DNA of 58,514 nt from an uncultured Bacteroidota bacterium (lineage in GTDB: Bacteria > Bacteroidota > Bacteroidia > Flavobacteriales > Flavobacteriaceae). Below are positions 2,207 to 7,473 of the stretch, piece by piece. A program made the position numbers and the translations under genes. The notes beneath the pieces were generated by a model. That model did no database searches. It saw only the letters and a list, made by a program, of their open reading frames with translations, and had not been told where the DNA came from. Every line of letters starts with the position of its first letter. The stretch's first letter is position 1. The DNA lies in NCBI GenBank assembly GCA_902514615.1, contig CABXRG010000001.1, positions 77,834-136,347 on the forward strand, given 5' to 3'.

Positions 2207-3781
2207 ATGAAAAATAACATATCGTTAATATTCCTTTTATTATTTGTAACTCTCTTAATTATATCATGTAATACGTCATTAAATAAAGATGAGAAAAGAC
2301 CAAATATAATAATAATCTATACTGATGATTTGGGTTATGGAGATGTAAGTGCGTATAAAAAAGGCACATTAAAAACCCCTAATATTGATAAGTTAGCAAA
2401 CGAAGGGATTAGATTTAATTACGGATATGCCTCATCTGCAACCTGCAGTCCAAGTAGATACGCACTTTTAACTGGAAATTATCCCTGGAGAAAAGATGGT
2501 TTAAGAGTTATTACTGGAGGATCATTAGTAATAGATACAACAGAAATGACTATCCCAAAACTATTAAAAACCAATGGTTATAAGACAGGTATTGTAGGGA
2601 AATGGCATCTTGGTTTAGGATCTGGCGATGGAGTTACAGGATCTGGTTTAATTAATTATAACTCTACCATTTCTCCTGGACCAAATCAAATTGGATTTGA
2701 CTATTCACATATAATGGCAGATACACAAGATCGTGTTCCAACTGTATATATTGAAAACGGAGATGTTGTTAATCTTGACATAAACGACCCTATAGAAGTA
2801 AATTTTTTTCATCAAAACAAAAATGATGATTACGGGTTACCAACTGGATTAAAAAATCCTGAACTCACCACAATGAAATGGCATCATGGTCATAATGGCT
2901 CAATTGTAAATGGTGTCCCTAGAATTGGTTATATGAAGGGAGGTAATGATGCTCTTTGGAGTGATATTGATATGTCAGATCATTTTCTAGAGAAAGCTAA
3001 AGAATATATAAAAAGAAATAAAAAAAAATCTTTCTTTTTATTTTATACTCTTCAACAACCACATGTTCCTAGAACACCTCATCCAAGATTTGAAGGACTA
3101 TCAGGAATGGGACCAAGAGGTGATGCAATAGTTGAAGCAGATTGGAGTATTGGAGAGCTCTATAAAACTCTAGAATCAGAAAATCTATTAGACAATACAT
3201 TAATAATATTTTCAAGTGATAATGGACCAGTGTTAAATGATGGATATTATGATGCTGCTGTTGAGAAACTTGGAGATCATACTCCATCTGGTGGTTTAAG
3301 AGGAGGTAAATATAGTCTTTTTGAAGCTGGAACAAGAGTTCCATTTATTACATATTGGAAAGGAAAAATAAATCCAGGAATATCAAATGAGATGATATCA
3401 CAAATTGATCTTTTAAATTCAATTTCTAGATTAATTGGGTCAGAATATAAATCAAAAGATGGATTAGAGCTTTTAAATTTAATTATTAATAATAAAGGAA
3501 AGGGTAGAGAAGAATTAATTCTTGAAGCCTCAACAAGAACTGCATATAGAAAAGGAGACTGGGTAATGATTCCTCCTTACAAGGGGCAATCAATTGCTAG
3601 AAATGTAAATATTGAATTAGCAAATTCTTTGGAATTCAAACTATATAATTTAAAGAATGATCCATCACAAAAAAATGATCTTTCAAAAAAAGAATATAAT
3701 AAGTTAGAGGAAATGATTACAAGCTTTATAAAAATAAGGGGTAAAGACTTTACTAATATTAAAGATCTAATTATAAAATAA
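2207..3781 (+). CDS. Exported sulfatase (S1 family), lipoprotein
   Basis: The second sulfatase of the operon has 524 residues. Its signal peptide ends in a lipobox (IISC). Visible motifs are the metal site YTDDLGYGDV, the formylglycine pentapeptide C-S-P-S-R with Cys80, the complete catalytic GKWHLGLG, the substrate/metal histidines in LQQPHVPRTPHPRF, and the late metal-binding SSDNGPV. These cover the usual active site, so the enzyme should be functional once matured. The short C-terminal domain (YNLKNDPSQKNDL) is typical of arylsulfatase A-like enzymes. It is only loosely similar to its neighbours, which suggests that the three enzymes remove different sulfates from one glycan (inference). 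The A-rich leader has no Shine-Dalgarno site. Confidence 0.92.
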   Translation: MKNNISLIFLLLFVTLLIISCNTSLNKDEKRPNIIIIYTDDLGYGDVSAYKKGTLKTPNIDKLANEGIRFNYGYASSATCSPSRYALLTGNYPWRKDGLRVITGGSLVIDTTEMTIPKLLKTNGYKTGIVGKWHLGLGSGDGVTGSGLINYNSTISPGPNQIGFDYSHIMADTQDRVPTVYIENGDVVNLDINDPIEVNFFHQNKNDDYGLPTGLKNPELTTMKWHHGHNGSIVNGVPRIGYMKGGNDALWSDIDMSDHFLEKAKEYIKRNKKKSFFLFYTLQQPHVPRTPHPRFEGLSGMGPRGDAIVEADWSIGELYKTLESENLLDNTLIIFSSDNGPVLNDGYYDAAVEKLGDHTPSGGLRGGKYSLFEAGTRVPFITYWKGKINPGISNEMISQIDLLNSISRLIGSEYKSKDGLELLNLIINNKGKGREELILEASTRTAYRKGDWVMIPPYKGQSIARNVNIELANSLEFKLYNLKNDPSQKNDLSKKEYNKLEEMITSFIKIRGKDFTNIKDLIIK

Positions 3782-3827
3782 CTTGATTTTTAAAAACCAT
3801 TTTTATATTTATTTAAAAATAAAAACC

Positions 3828-5447
3828 ATGAAATATTATTATTTACAATTATTTTTTATCACTTTTTTTATTGTAGGTTGTAATGATAATTCACAAAATG
3901 AGAAAAAGCCTAATATATTATTTATTATGTCTGATGATCATGCTTACCAAGCAATAAGTGCATATGATGATAGACTAATCCAAACTCCAAACATTGATAG
4001 AATTGCTCAAGAGGGTATGTTGTTTACTAATGCTTCTGTTACAAATTCTATATGTGCACCTTCTCGAGCAGTTATACTGACTGGTAAACACAGTCATATA
4101 AATGGTAAAATAGATAACATTGCAAAGTTTGACGATTCTCAAATGACTTTTCCTCAATTATTTAAAGAGGCTGGATACCAGACAGCTATGTTTGGTAAAC
4201 TTCATTTTGGAAATAACCCAAAAGGAATTGATGATTTTCAAATACTGCCAGGACAGGGTGATTATATAAATCCCAGGTTTCTAGGAAAAGATAAAGACAC
4301 CATAATTACAGGATATGTTACAGATATAATTACTGATTTAACATTAAACTGGTTTAAAACCAAAAGAGATAAAAATAAACCATTTTTGACCTTTTACCTC
4401 CATAAAGCTCCTCATAGGGCTTGGTGGCCAAGTCCAGAAAAATTTGCTGAGTTTTATGAGAGGGAATTCCCTGAACCTGATAATTTATATGATGATTATT
4501 CAGGGAGGGGAACTGCTGCAAAAACAGCAGAAATGAATATTTTAACTCATATGCAATACATGCAGGATAGCAAAGTTAGACCAACGACTTTTGAAAAAAT
4601 GGGAAAGGTTGAGCCTGAAATTCTTTACGCTAGGGGTGATGGAACTTTTTTTAAACCAACTTCTAATTCGTTCAATAATAGGTATAACAGAGCTAATGAA
4701 GAACAAAAGAAAAAATATGATGTTACTCTAGATAAGATAAGTGAAGATTTTAAAATCAATTGGCCAAACATGAATGTTAAAGAAAAAATGAAATGGAAAT
4801 TTCAGAGATATATGCAAGACTATTTAGCAACTATATCGTCAGTTGATGATAATGTAGGTAGAGTTCTAGATTATTTGGAAAAAACAGGATTAGATGAAAA
4901 TACAATTGTTATTTACACATCAGATCAAGGTTTTTATCTTGGTGAACATGGGTGGTTTGATAAGAGATTTATTTATGATGAATCTTTTAAAACTCCGCTT
5001 TTAATTAAATGGCCAAATAAAATTGAACCCGGAACAACTAGTGATGAAATGGTTCAGAATTTAGATTTTGCTCAGACTTTTTTAGAAGCTGCAATGTTAG
5101 AAGCACCTGATGATATGCAGGGTGAAAGTTTAATACCATTATTAAAAGGTAATGATCAGAATTGGACAAGAGAAGCAGTATACTATCATTATTATGAATA
5201 TCCTTCTGTTCATATGGCTAAAAGACATTATGGAATAGTAAATAAGAAATACAAACTAGTTCACTTTTATTTCGATATTGATGAATGGGAGTTATATGAT
5301 AGGGTTAATGACCCAAATGAAATGAATAATGTATATAATGATCCTAAGTATAGAAATATTGTAGAAAATCTAACGAATGAATTATACGATTTAAGAAAAA
5401 AATATAAGGATTCAGAAGATCTAGATAATAGTTTTCTTTATAATTAA
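3828..5447 (+). CDS. Exported sulfatase, N-acetylglucosamine-6-sulfatase-like, lipoprotein
   Basis: I use the ATG at 3828; the in-frame TTG at 3783 would add 15 residues in front of a complete lipoprotein signal (lipobox IVGC). The protein has 539 residues. Motifs are SDDHAYQAIS (metal), the formylglycine site C-A-P-S-R with Cys76, GKLHFG (a variant of GKWHLG), LPGQGDYINPRF, HKAPHRAWWP, TSDQGFYLGEHGWFDKR and a C-terminal block YHYYEYPSVHMAKRHYG followed by DEWELYDRVNDPNEMNN. From memory these resemble the S1_11 sulfatases, many of which are GlcNAc-6-O-sulfatases. That assignment is family knowledge plus pattern matching, not a search result. Such an activity would fit the GH20/NagX locus further along. 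Confidence 0.9.
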   Translation: MKYYYLQLFFITFFIVGCNDNSQNEKKPNILFIMSDDHAYQAISAYDDRLIQTPNIDRIAQEGMLFTNASVTNSICAPSRAVILTGKHSHINGKIDNIAKFDDSQMTFPQLFKEAGYQTAMFGKLHFGNNPKGIDDFQILPGQGDYINPRFLGKDKDTIITGYVTDIITDLTLNWFKTKRDKNKPFLTFYLHKAPHRAWWPSPEKFAEFYEREFPEPDNLYDDYSGRGTAAKTAEMNILTHMQYMQDSKVRPTTFEKMGKVEPEILYARGDGTFFKPTSNSFNNRYNRANEEQKKKYDVTLDKISEDFKINWPNMNVKEKMKWKFQRYMQDYLATISSVDDNVGRVLDYLEKTGLDENTIVIYTSDQGFYLGEHGWFDKRFIYDESFKTPLLIKWPNKIEPGTTSDEMVQNLDFAQTFLEAAMLEAPDDMQGESLIPLLKGNDQNWTREAVYYHYYEYPSVHMAKRHYGIVNKKYKLVHFYFDIDEWELYDRVNDPNEMNNVYNDPKYRNIVENLTNELYDLRKKYKDSEDLDNSFLYN

Positions 5448-5468: not shown

Positions 5469-6044
5469 ATGAAAAATTTAACATTAATACTTTTTTTTAC
5501 TTTTGCCTTTTGCTCAACAGAAATCAACTATAACTTGAAACCTGTTACCGTTCAGGAGTTTAGAAAATTTATAAACGAATCAAATTATCAAACTGATGCT
5601 GAAAAATATGGTTGGTCAATAGTCCAGATAGATGTATATAATTATGAAATTATAAATGGAGCTAATTGGAAAAAACCAGACGGAATTAATGCCTCTATTG
5701 ATAATTTGCCAGTTACACAAGTTAGTTACAATGATGCAATTGAATATTCTAAATGGGCTGGAGTGAAACTTCCAACATATGATCAATATTGGAAGATAGT
5801 AGCAACTGATGAAAGATTAATAGTTTCAGATAATATGTATCCTGTTTCTCCTGTAGCTGATGTAAATATTATAGGAAATGTATGGGATATTACAGAGTCA
5901 AATGATTCAAATCAGGTTAGGTTGGCCGGTGGTTCTCTCTTTTGCTCAATAGATACTTGTCATGGAACTCAAGAGGAAAGAGAATTATATGTTGATAAAG
6001 AAACTGGTAATATTCACATTGGATTTAGTATTTTAACCGAATAA
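5469..6044 (+). CDS. Compact exported formylglycine-generating-enzyme-like protein
   Basis: The FGE/SUMF1 family oxidises the cysteine of sulfatase C-x-P-x-R motifs to formylglycine using O2 and a Cu(I) ion held by two cysteines. The family pattern is visible in order: VTVQEFRKFI, TDAEKYGWS, GANWKKPDG, LPVTQVSYNDAIEYSKWAG, KLPT, NVWDIT, and a C-terminal RLAGGSLFCSIDTC. Cys159 and Cys164 keep the C-x4-C spacing of the catalytic pair and follow the conserved GGS. The protein is only 191 residues, against about 280-370 for classical enzymes; the central PWG/Ca-site region is mostly missing. The final GFR motif reads GFS, so its arginine is lost. The N-terminus is a signal peptide (hydrophobic 4-14, then Cys15), but -1 is Phe, so lipidation is doubtful. 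It lies 21 bases behind three sulfatases. A maturase role is likely but unproven; a non-catalytic FGE-fold protein is the alternative. Confidence 0.75.
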   Translation: MKNLTLILFFTFAFCSTEINYNLKPVTVQEFRKFINESNYQTDAEKYGWSIVQIDVYNYEIINGANWKKPDGINASIDNLPVTQVSYNDAIEYSKWAGVKLPTYDQYWKIVATDERLIVSDNMYPVSPVADVNIIGNVWDITESNDSNQVRLAGGSLFCSIDTCHGTQEERELYVDKETGNIHIGFSILTE

Positions 6045-6503
6045 ATGAAATATACTCCTAACAAAATAAATAGATGGATGCTTTTTAAGCTTCCTGCTGC
6101 GTGGTTAACTGGTGTAAGGCTTACATTGATTAATGAAGATAAATGTGAAGTTAAAGTTAGATTTAAATGGATTAATCAAAATCCTTATAGATCTATGTTT
6201 TGGGCTGTTCAAGCAATGGCTGCAGAGCTCACGACAGGTATGCTTTTAACGAAATCTATTCAAGATTCAAATACTGATATCTCAATGTTACTTATAAGTA
6301 ATAAATCAAGCTTTTTTAAAAAAGCAGTAGGCAAAATAACTTTTATTTGTAATGAAGGTGAAATTGCAAAACAATTAATTAATTCAACAATTCAAAATAC
6401 TACATCTAAGTCTTGGTTCAAGGCTAAGGGATATGATGAAGTTGGAGATCAAGTCTCTGAATTTGATTTTGAATGGTCATGTAAAAAAAGAAAAAATGGA
6501 TAA
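6045..6503 (+). CDS. DUF4442 hotdog-fold (thioesterase-like) protein
   Basis: A cytoplasmic protein of 152 residues whose ATG directly follows the stop codon of the FGE-like gene, so translation is probably coupled. The pattern fits DUF4442, a hotdog-fold family related to acyl-CoA thioesterases: RWMLFKLPAAWLTGVRL at the start, then KVRFKWINQNPYRSMFWAVQAMAAE, with the glutamate usually found on the central hotdog helix, followed by alternating beta strands. There is no signal peptide. The family's substrate is unknown to me. Its position between sulfatase maturation and a nitronate monooxygenase has no obvious pathway logic, and the gene may simply share the promoter. Confidence 0.8.
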   Translation: MKYTPNKINRWMLFKLPAAWLTGVRLTLINEDKCEVKVRFKWINQNPYRSMFWAVQAMAAELTTGMLLTKSIQDSNTDISMLLISNKSSFFKKAVGKITFICNEGEIAKQLINSTIQNTTSKSWFKAKGYDEVGDQVSEFDFEWSCKKRKNG

Positions 6504-7473
6504 AGATTTTTATACTAAACTAAATATGCCTGTAATAGCAGCACCACTATTTTTAATATCGGGCCCAAAACTTGTTATAGAATGTTGTAAAAGTGGAATA
6601 GTTGGTACTTTTCCAGCTTTGAATCAAAGAACTTCTGAAGGATTTGAAGAGTGGGTAGTTCAAATAAAAGATGAACTGGATAAGTATGAAAAGGAAACTG
6701 GAATTAAACCTGCTCCTTTTGGTGTTAACTTAATTGTTCATCCATCTAATATTAGAATTAAGGCTGATTTAGATATTTGTGTAAAGCATAAAGTACCACT
6801 TATAATAACTTCATTAGGTGCAGTTCCTGATATAGTTAACGCTATTCATGGTTACGGTGGTCTAGTTTATCATGATATAATCAAAAAAAGACATGCTGAG
6901 AAAGCTGCAGAAGCTAATGTAGACGGTTTAGTATTAGTGACAGCTGGAGCTGGAGGACATTCCGGATTAAAGAATCCAATGGCTATGATTTCATTAATAA
7001 AAGAATTTTTTAATAAAACAATCATTTTATCTGGTTCAATATCTAGTGGAAGAGACATAGCATCTGCTCTTCAAATGGGTGCTGATATTGCATATATGGG
7101 TACAAGATTTATAAATACAAAAGAAAGTATGGCTGAAGATGCATACAAGGATATGATTATTAATTCTACAGCTGAAGATATTGTTTATACAGCTGCTATC
7201 TCAGGTGTACATGCAAATTTCTTGAGACCTAGTCTAGAGGCTATGGGCGTAACTGAAGATGTTTGGAATAATTCTAAAAAAATAGATTTTGGAAAAGATA
7301 TGGCAGAGGCTGAAGCTAAAGCATGGAAGACCATATGGTCTGCTGGTCATGGAGTAACTTCAATAAAGGATAATCCACCTACTAAGGAATTAATTAATAA
7401 ACTAAAACAGGAATTTATTCAGTCAATAGAATCTCAGAAAAAGAATTTAGATTTTATCAAAAATATTTACTAA
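6496..7473 (+). CDS. Nitronate monooxygenase family flavoprotein (NMO/2-nitropropane dioxygenase)
   Basis: An FMN-dependent TIM-barrel enzyme that would oxidise nitronates such as propionate-3-nitronate, or act as a related enoyl-type reductase. I start it at the ATG at 6496, which overlaps the DUF4442 stop by 8 bases; a longer in-frame start at 6433 would overlap that gene by 71 bases and adds a non-homologous tail. The 325 residues show the family order: MPVIAAPLFLISGPKLV, GVNLIVHPSN, ITSLGAVPD, VDGLVLVTAGAGGHSG (flavin/phosphate region with the conserved His), LSGSISSGRDIASALQMGADIAYMGTRF (phosphate-binding end of the barrel). The detoxification role is family knowledge; the link with sulfatases is unexplained. 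Confidence 0.88.
   Translation: MDKDFYTKLNMPVIAAPLFLISGPKLVIECCKSGIVGTFPALNQRTSEGFEEWVVQIKDELDKYEKETGIKPAPFGVNLIVHPSNIRIKADLDICVKHKVPLIITSLGAVPDIVNAIHGYGGLVYHDIIKKRHAEKAAEANVDGLVLVTAGAGGHSGLKNPMAMISLIKEFFNKTIILSGSISSGRDIASALQMGADIAYMGTRFINTKESMAEDAYKDMIINSTAEDIVYTAAISGVHANFLRPSLEAMGVTEDVWNNSKKIDFGKDMAEAEAKAWKTIWSAGHGVTSIKDNPPTKELINKLKQEFIQSIESQKKNLDFIKNIY

Follow-up and report, generated by a model that had tools for sequence, protein, structure and literature searches.

The gene at positions 5469–6044 of the window (the whole stretch of 58,514 nucleotides that was analysed; contig 1, 77834–136347) probably encodes a minimal, exported, Cu-dependent FGE that matures sulfatases after their export, with a catalytic function that we infer. 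The short FGE-like family to which the product belongs is referred to here as sFGE, a label coined in this analysis. We lean slightly towards regarding sFGE as a distinct minimal class of FGE that has taken the place of full-length FGE as well as of anSME in scattered Bacteroidota, acting outside the cytoplasm with a cut-down groove that is completed by the sulfatase. The source assembly, from a marine bacterium, comprises 1.03 Mb in 40 contigs and is 80.6% complete. The relevant features of the window are as follows.

651–2201, + strand: sulfatase 1 (PF00884), motif CAPAR, leader with a terminal Cys
2207–3781, + strand: sulfatase 2 (PF00884), motif CSPSR, leader with a terminal Cys
3783–5447, + strand: sulfatase 3 (PF00884/SGSH_C), motif CAPSR, leader with a terminal Cys; its orthologue immediately precedes sFGE in 14 of the 15 genus copies
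5469–6044, + strand: sFGE gene, 191-aa minimal FGE-like protein (ORF, PF03781 match, alignment and model)
5469–5513, + strand: putative sFGE leader, a hydrophobic stretch to the lipobox-like Cys15 (read from the sequence; likewise in 26 of 28 homologues)
5934–5936, + strand: codon of Ser156 (in GGS), aligned to human FGE Ser333, kept in 27 of 27
5943–5945, + strand: codon of Cys159, aligned to human FGE Cys336, kept in 27 of 27
5958–5960, + strand: codon of Cys164, aligned to human FGE Cys341, kept in 27 of 27

As the earlier note had claimed, three sulfatase genes with C-x-P-x-R motifs precede the sFGE gene; they end at 2201, 3781, and 5447, and the gap between the last of these ends and the sFGE start is 21 bases. 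On the 3′ side, a DUF4442 gene follows without a gap and is itself followed by an overlapping NMO-like gene (window 6045–7473); wherever this flank is assembled in the genus loci, the same two genes lie downstream of sFGE. The genome also encodes a fourth sulfatase, of the C-x-A-x-R type (CSASR), away from the main cluster (L208:1863–3260).

The protein matched the Pfam FGE-sulfatase model (PF03781) over residues 25–112 with an E value of 2.8e-15 and 57.1 bits (cut-off, 23.3), and its Cys-bearing end is too divergent for this model. An hhalign comparison with eight full-length Flavobacteriales FGEs covered 167 columns that take in GGS-x2-C-x4-C and reach the ..H.GF end, with a probability of 99.7, so the segments stand in FGE order, in agreement with the earlier reading. 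The Cys159-x4-Cys164 pair reported to follow GGS was confirmed in the translated ORF, and the reported export leader could likewise be recognized by its basic residues, hydrophobic stretch, and Cys15. A hydrophobic leader stretch was found in all 28 diverse sFGE homologues, with a Cys in or after the stretch in 26 of them. The best sequence matches in the PDB were human SUMF2, CalU17, and several FGEs, and an assignment to the EgtB/SenA sulfoxide synthases was not obtained with curated family models (scores of 34 and 29 bits, with cut-offs of 360 and 420, respectively).

A joint alignment was built from 27 intact sFGEs (the frameshifted L084 copy being excluded) and 38 full-length FGE rows (32 distinct genes, six of them entered twice). 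GNVW and many N-terminal positions are common to all or nearly all rows, and Ser156, Cys159, and Cys164 are kept in all 27 sFGEs. The residues whose mutation alters human FGE activity include Cys336, Cys341, Ser333, His337, and Tyr340 (excerpts of PMC4505483), and sFGE retains the equivalents of the first three of these five. The Tyr340 place is taken by Thr163 in 26 of the 27 sFGEs and by Tyr in 38 of 38 full-length family rows, and among 18 Cys-pair FGEs read it is taken by Val in two (L102 and L104) and by Trp in several. Since Val or Trp stands there in full-length Cys-pair FGEs, Tyr340 is probably not a defining FGE feature; the Y340H substitution is described as having little impact on FGE (PMC4375846, excerpts). 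Arg343 is called strictly conserved in the same excerpts. Its place is occupied by Gly166 in 27 of 27 sFGEs, by Ser in 35 of the 38 full-length family rows, and by Gly in the Cys-His-Gly class of full-length Cys-pair FGEs, and Arg343 is thus not defining in bacteria. The GFR arginine is lost in sFGE, as the earlier note had said.

The loss of most of the central loop was borne out, as both central loops are cut in the joint alignment: between Trp108 and GNVW the median length is 27 residues in sFGE versus 63 in full-length FGEs, and between GNVW and GGS it is 13 versus 44. Human Asn259 (calcium site 1) presumably lies within the first central loop, and sFGE does not have the complete loops that include this site. 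The role of Asn259 in calcium site 1 is treated in the excerpts of PMC4375846. Variable regions form the substrate groove of FGE (PMC12421860, in part), and because the two central loops are missing, substrate binding by sFGE must differ, with a groove that is either more open or completed by the sulfatase. The shortened groove loops and the replaced Tyr340 would also suit a non-catalytic helper of FGE fold, one that serves as a dock for exported sulfatases or deals with copper, with formylglycine being made by another system, and docking proteins derived from FGE folds occur in Bacteroidota (PMC12421860, in part). The Cys pair is missing from structural FGE-fold proteins, but both Cys residues and the Ser are kept in all 27 intact sFGEs, and nearly all host assemblies yielded no other maturase; we therefore consider such a helper unlikely. 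The same conservation speaks against the non-catalytic relative offered as an alternative in the earlier note.

The superposition on human or Streptomyces FGE suggested there was carried out with predicted structures. AlphaFold2 with 29 homologues gave a best sFGE model with a pLDDT of 76.0 and a pTM of 0.77; the other four models were weak (mean pLDDT 53–66), and the Cys loop was poorly modelled (residues 163–165, pLDDT <50). Residues 19–191 of the best model were superposed by VIA-align on residues 59–304 of the S. coelicolor FGE chain (2q17) with a Z score of 15.3 and 2.7 Å over 167 residues, a score tied by CalU17. The top Foldseek match was T. curvata FGE (E 8.8e-10, TM 0.66 by query), and PorK was also among the structural matches. 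A model of the Zeaxanthinibacter sFGE (pLDDT 65, pTM 0.71) gave Z scores of 15.2 with CalU17 and 14.3 with human FGE, although the two models are not independent because they have homologues in common. By prediction, sFGE thus appears to adopt the FGE fold.

Another 14 genomes of the genus contain orthologues with 66–76% identity to the window protein, which brings the carriers to 15 of 25 genus genomes, and the 14 complete genus copies are all 190–192 aa in length. A scan of named genomes yielded 34 loci matching sFGE, with carriers including Tenacibaculum aiptasiae, Zeaxanthinibacter enoshimensis DSM 18435, and assemblies assigned to Kordia, Winogradskyella, Allomuricauda, Sphingobacteriales, Saprospiraceae, and Flammeovirgaceae. 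Of the 299 family genomes sampled, 11 had full-length matches; five of the original 16 matches (G026, G152, G203, G227, and G283) were dropped because they were confined to the N-terminal part and lay in frames of 285–318 aa. In the phylum sample, 4 of 22 matches were counted as sFGE (4 of 395 genomes, one with an in-frame stop). On these counts, the family is rare and scattered. A 594-aa protein of Candidatus Scalindua (L088) was rejected as sFGE, since it matches residues 26–125 only; distant matches in plasmid records (100) and Acinetobacter phage records (5) were all below 60% identity, and none of the three plasmid matches inspected was read as sFGE. In two trees, a branch with 100/100 support sets the sFGEs (27 of 27 rows in one tree and 17 of 17 in the other) apart from the included full-length FGEs, and the clade that they form is spread over several families.

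Pairwise comparisons with seven relatives gave dN/dS values of 0.13–0.21 with dS near or above 1, indicative of purifying selection; together with the gene order kept in the genus, these values make the pattern more than chance. A truncated, decaying FGE gene is accordingly a very improbable explanation, already contradicted by conservation: sFGE is about half as long as the full-length family FGEs, and two copies are interrupted, but the dN/dS values, the constant length in the genus, and the single clade across several families do not fit decay. One of the interrupted copies (L084:8001–8566) has a frameshift just past the second Cys and lies in an assembly in which no motif-bearing sulfatase was found, and the other (L196:8406–8801, G471) has an in-frame stop.

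Within the genus, sFGE lies directly behind the sulfatase 3 orthologue in 14 of the 15 copies (13 other loci and the window). The fifteenth copy, in G016, runs off the contig end and has a TPR gene, not a sulfatase, upstream, and no sulfatase was found elsewhere in this genome (77% complete). Among the 25 genus genomes, 14 have both sulfatase and sFGE, four sulfatase only, one sFGE only, and six neither (Fisher P 0.007). In three of the sulfatase-only genomes (G012, G017, and G001), a contig edge falls within or beside the sulfatases; the fourth, G020, has one C-x-A-x-R sulfatase (L204:2567–4024), similar to the fourth sulfatase of the window's genome, and no PF03781 match. Outside the genus, sFGE directly adjoins a sulfatase gene in 12 of the 25 distinct genomes (10 of 20 by lineage) versus approximately 0.08 expected by chance, assuming one gene per kilobase and taking all PF00884 matches; sFGE follows the sulfatase in five of these adjacencies, precedes it in three, and is convergent with it in four. 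In the loci read, after the removal of identical stretches, all 74 sulfatase ORFs in which the motif could be read were of the Cys type (65 C-x-P-x-R and 9 C-x-A-x-R), which fits the FGE reading because FGE needs a Cys-type substrate. A PF00884 match was present in all 27 entries checked, although PF00884 also includes LTA-synthase-like proteins; in G736, the sole match is of LTA-synthase-like size and lacks the motif, and the sFGE of this assembly is frameshifted. Potential clients with C-x-P/A-x-R were thus found in most examined carriers, the exceptions being G016 and G736.

No sulfatase adjoins the other 13 of the 25 copies found outside the genus. These lone copies, and the occurrence of sFGE in G016, would be expected of a Cu/thiol oxidase of FGE fold whose client is other or wider than sulfatases. 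We regard such an oxidase as quite unlikely in view of the excess of sulfatase adjacencies over expectation and the co-occurrence in the genus, and also because the lone copies have no neighbour or theme in common among the ten neighbour proteins tested. A link to copper homeostasis was likewise set aside: one lone copy (L080) lies approximately 6 kb from an RND-type transporter gene, yet the direct neighbours share no theme.

The search for a full-length FGE or anSME elsewhere in the window's genome (80.6% complete) found neither: at E ≤1, PF03781 had one match, sFGE itself, and the anSME model TIGR03942 had none. Across 44 genome entries, which correspond to 40 distinct sFGE genomes (G730 and G732 repeat G323 and G207, and sFGE was not seen in G012 and G017), anSME was above the cut-off in none. 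Three Tenacibaculum entries (L126–L128) contain a radical-SAM protein scoring 180–182 bits to the anSME model (cut-off, 349). A strong full-length FGE match (454 bits), located near a CTAGR sulfatase, was found in one of the 44 entries, a Winogradskyella assembly that also carries sFGE, and the next full-length FGE profile matches scored ≤96 bits. Fifty FGE-like loci (L129–L158 and L239–L258) were read from among the stronger matches, many of the weaker ones being of GldK/GldJ size; an FGE frame was readable in 30 of 30 and 16 of 20, respectively (none for L239, L250, L256, and L257), and the Cys pair was found only in the Winogradskyella full-length FGE (L129/L251, one gene) and its sFGE (L254). 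The FGE-like proteins of 317–319 aa in the genus (G006, G012, G013, G015, G021, and G023) were rejected as true maturases, all six lacking the Cys pair; their genes (L050–L055) adjoin genes for products with a twin-arginine-like leader (RRNFIK). Among the 299 family genomes, assumed to be the same draw in both searches (equal settings, shared handles), 133 carried the main full-length FGE and 11 carried sFGE, and no genome had both (P 0.0013 with genomes and 0.0045 with genera as the unit, the latter count removing relatedness only in part). The figure of 133 is a lower bound, since L102 and L104, two of the five dropped matches, are full-length Cys-pair FGEs outside it (no FGE was read in the other three), and every absence is weakened by the incompleteness of most assemblies.

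The earlier note regarded an exported FGE as an unusual topology. This view did not hold for the family, as each of the best-scoring 30 of the 133 full-length family FGEs (L209–L238) has an N-terminal hydrophobic leader with a Cys at its end; judged from these leaders, an exported FGE is not odd here. FGE in Flavobacteriaceae looks like an exported lipoprotein, with sFGE sharing the topology and differing in size, which suggests that post-export sulfatase maturation may be general in this family. The proposal of a minimal FGE working on exported sulfatases otherwise stood: an FGE-type protein is tied to exported Cys-type sulfatases, and no other maturase was found in the window's genome as far as it is assembled. 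Human FGE also acts outside the cytoplasm, in the ER (PMC5915273, in part). A full-length FGE of Formosa agariphila, a member of the same family, has been co-expressed with sulfatases in E. coli (excerpts of PMC8511951), a host for which an unidentified maturation system is described (excerpts of PMC6189696).

Compared with known systems, sFGE has in common with full-length FGE/SUMF1 (human, S. coelicolor, T. curvata, and the Flavobacteriaceae lipoprotein type) the fold, GGS-x2-C-x4-C, and the linkage to Cys-type sulfatases, and with the Flavobacteriaceae members also the leader ending in Cys. It differs in length (191 aa versus 352–398 aa in eight aligned FGEs), in the two cut loops, in the Tyr340-to-Thr replacement and the lost GFR arginine, and in forming a separate clade. 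The FGEs of ~290–340 aa with Cys-His-Gly-Tyr-Arg in other Bacteroidota, a class whose ~290-aa form has to our knowledge no published name, resemble sFGE in having His-Gly after the Cys pair (17 of the 18 Cys-pair proteins read) and in a somewhat higher mean identity to it than that of the main family FGE (33% versus 30%); unlike sFGE, they have a full core with both loops and fall outside the sFGE clade. Many members of this class, which includes L108, L111, L114, L117–L125, and others, have a lipoprotein-like leader. anSME would serve the same clients but is an unrelated radical-SAM enzyme. PorK/GldK/GldJ and OCTIN share the FGE fold and export with sFGE; in the excerpts of PMC12421860 and PMC5915273 they are without the Cys pair that sFGE keeps. 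No description of a short exported FGE was recognized in searches of the open-access literature, most subscription papers being outside this scope.

We count several results against the FGE reading: G016, G020, G736, the Winogradskyella assembly with both enzymes, the 13 lone copies, the replaced Tyr340 and shortened central loops, and the low confidence of the model at the Cys loop. Under the favoured reading of a minimal exported FGE, sFGE would first be exported by the Sec pathway and probably lipid anchored, after which a single Cu(I) would be bound by Cys159 and Cys164. An exported sulfatase would then supply a third thiolate to the Cu, from the Cys of its C-x-P/A-x-R segment, and the activation of O2 would convert this Cys to formylglycine, switching on the sulfatase outside the cytoplasm. 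The catalytic steps are proposed for sFGE from the kept Ser/Cys/Cys set and the fold.

If this reading is true, sFGE is a very small FGE, of roughly 175 residues without the leader, and could be useful for asking which parts of FGE its unusual Cu(I)/O2 chemistry needs and perhaps in aldehyde-tag work. It would also explain how enzymes may be active in assemblies that have Cys-type sulfatases seemingly without FGE and anSME. Together, sFGE and the leaders of the full-length family FGEs point to the maturation of sulfatases after export in Flavobacteriaceae.
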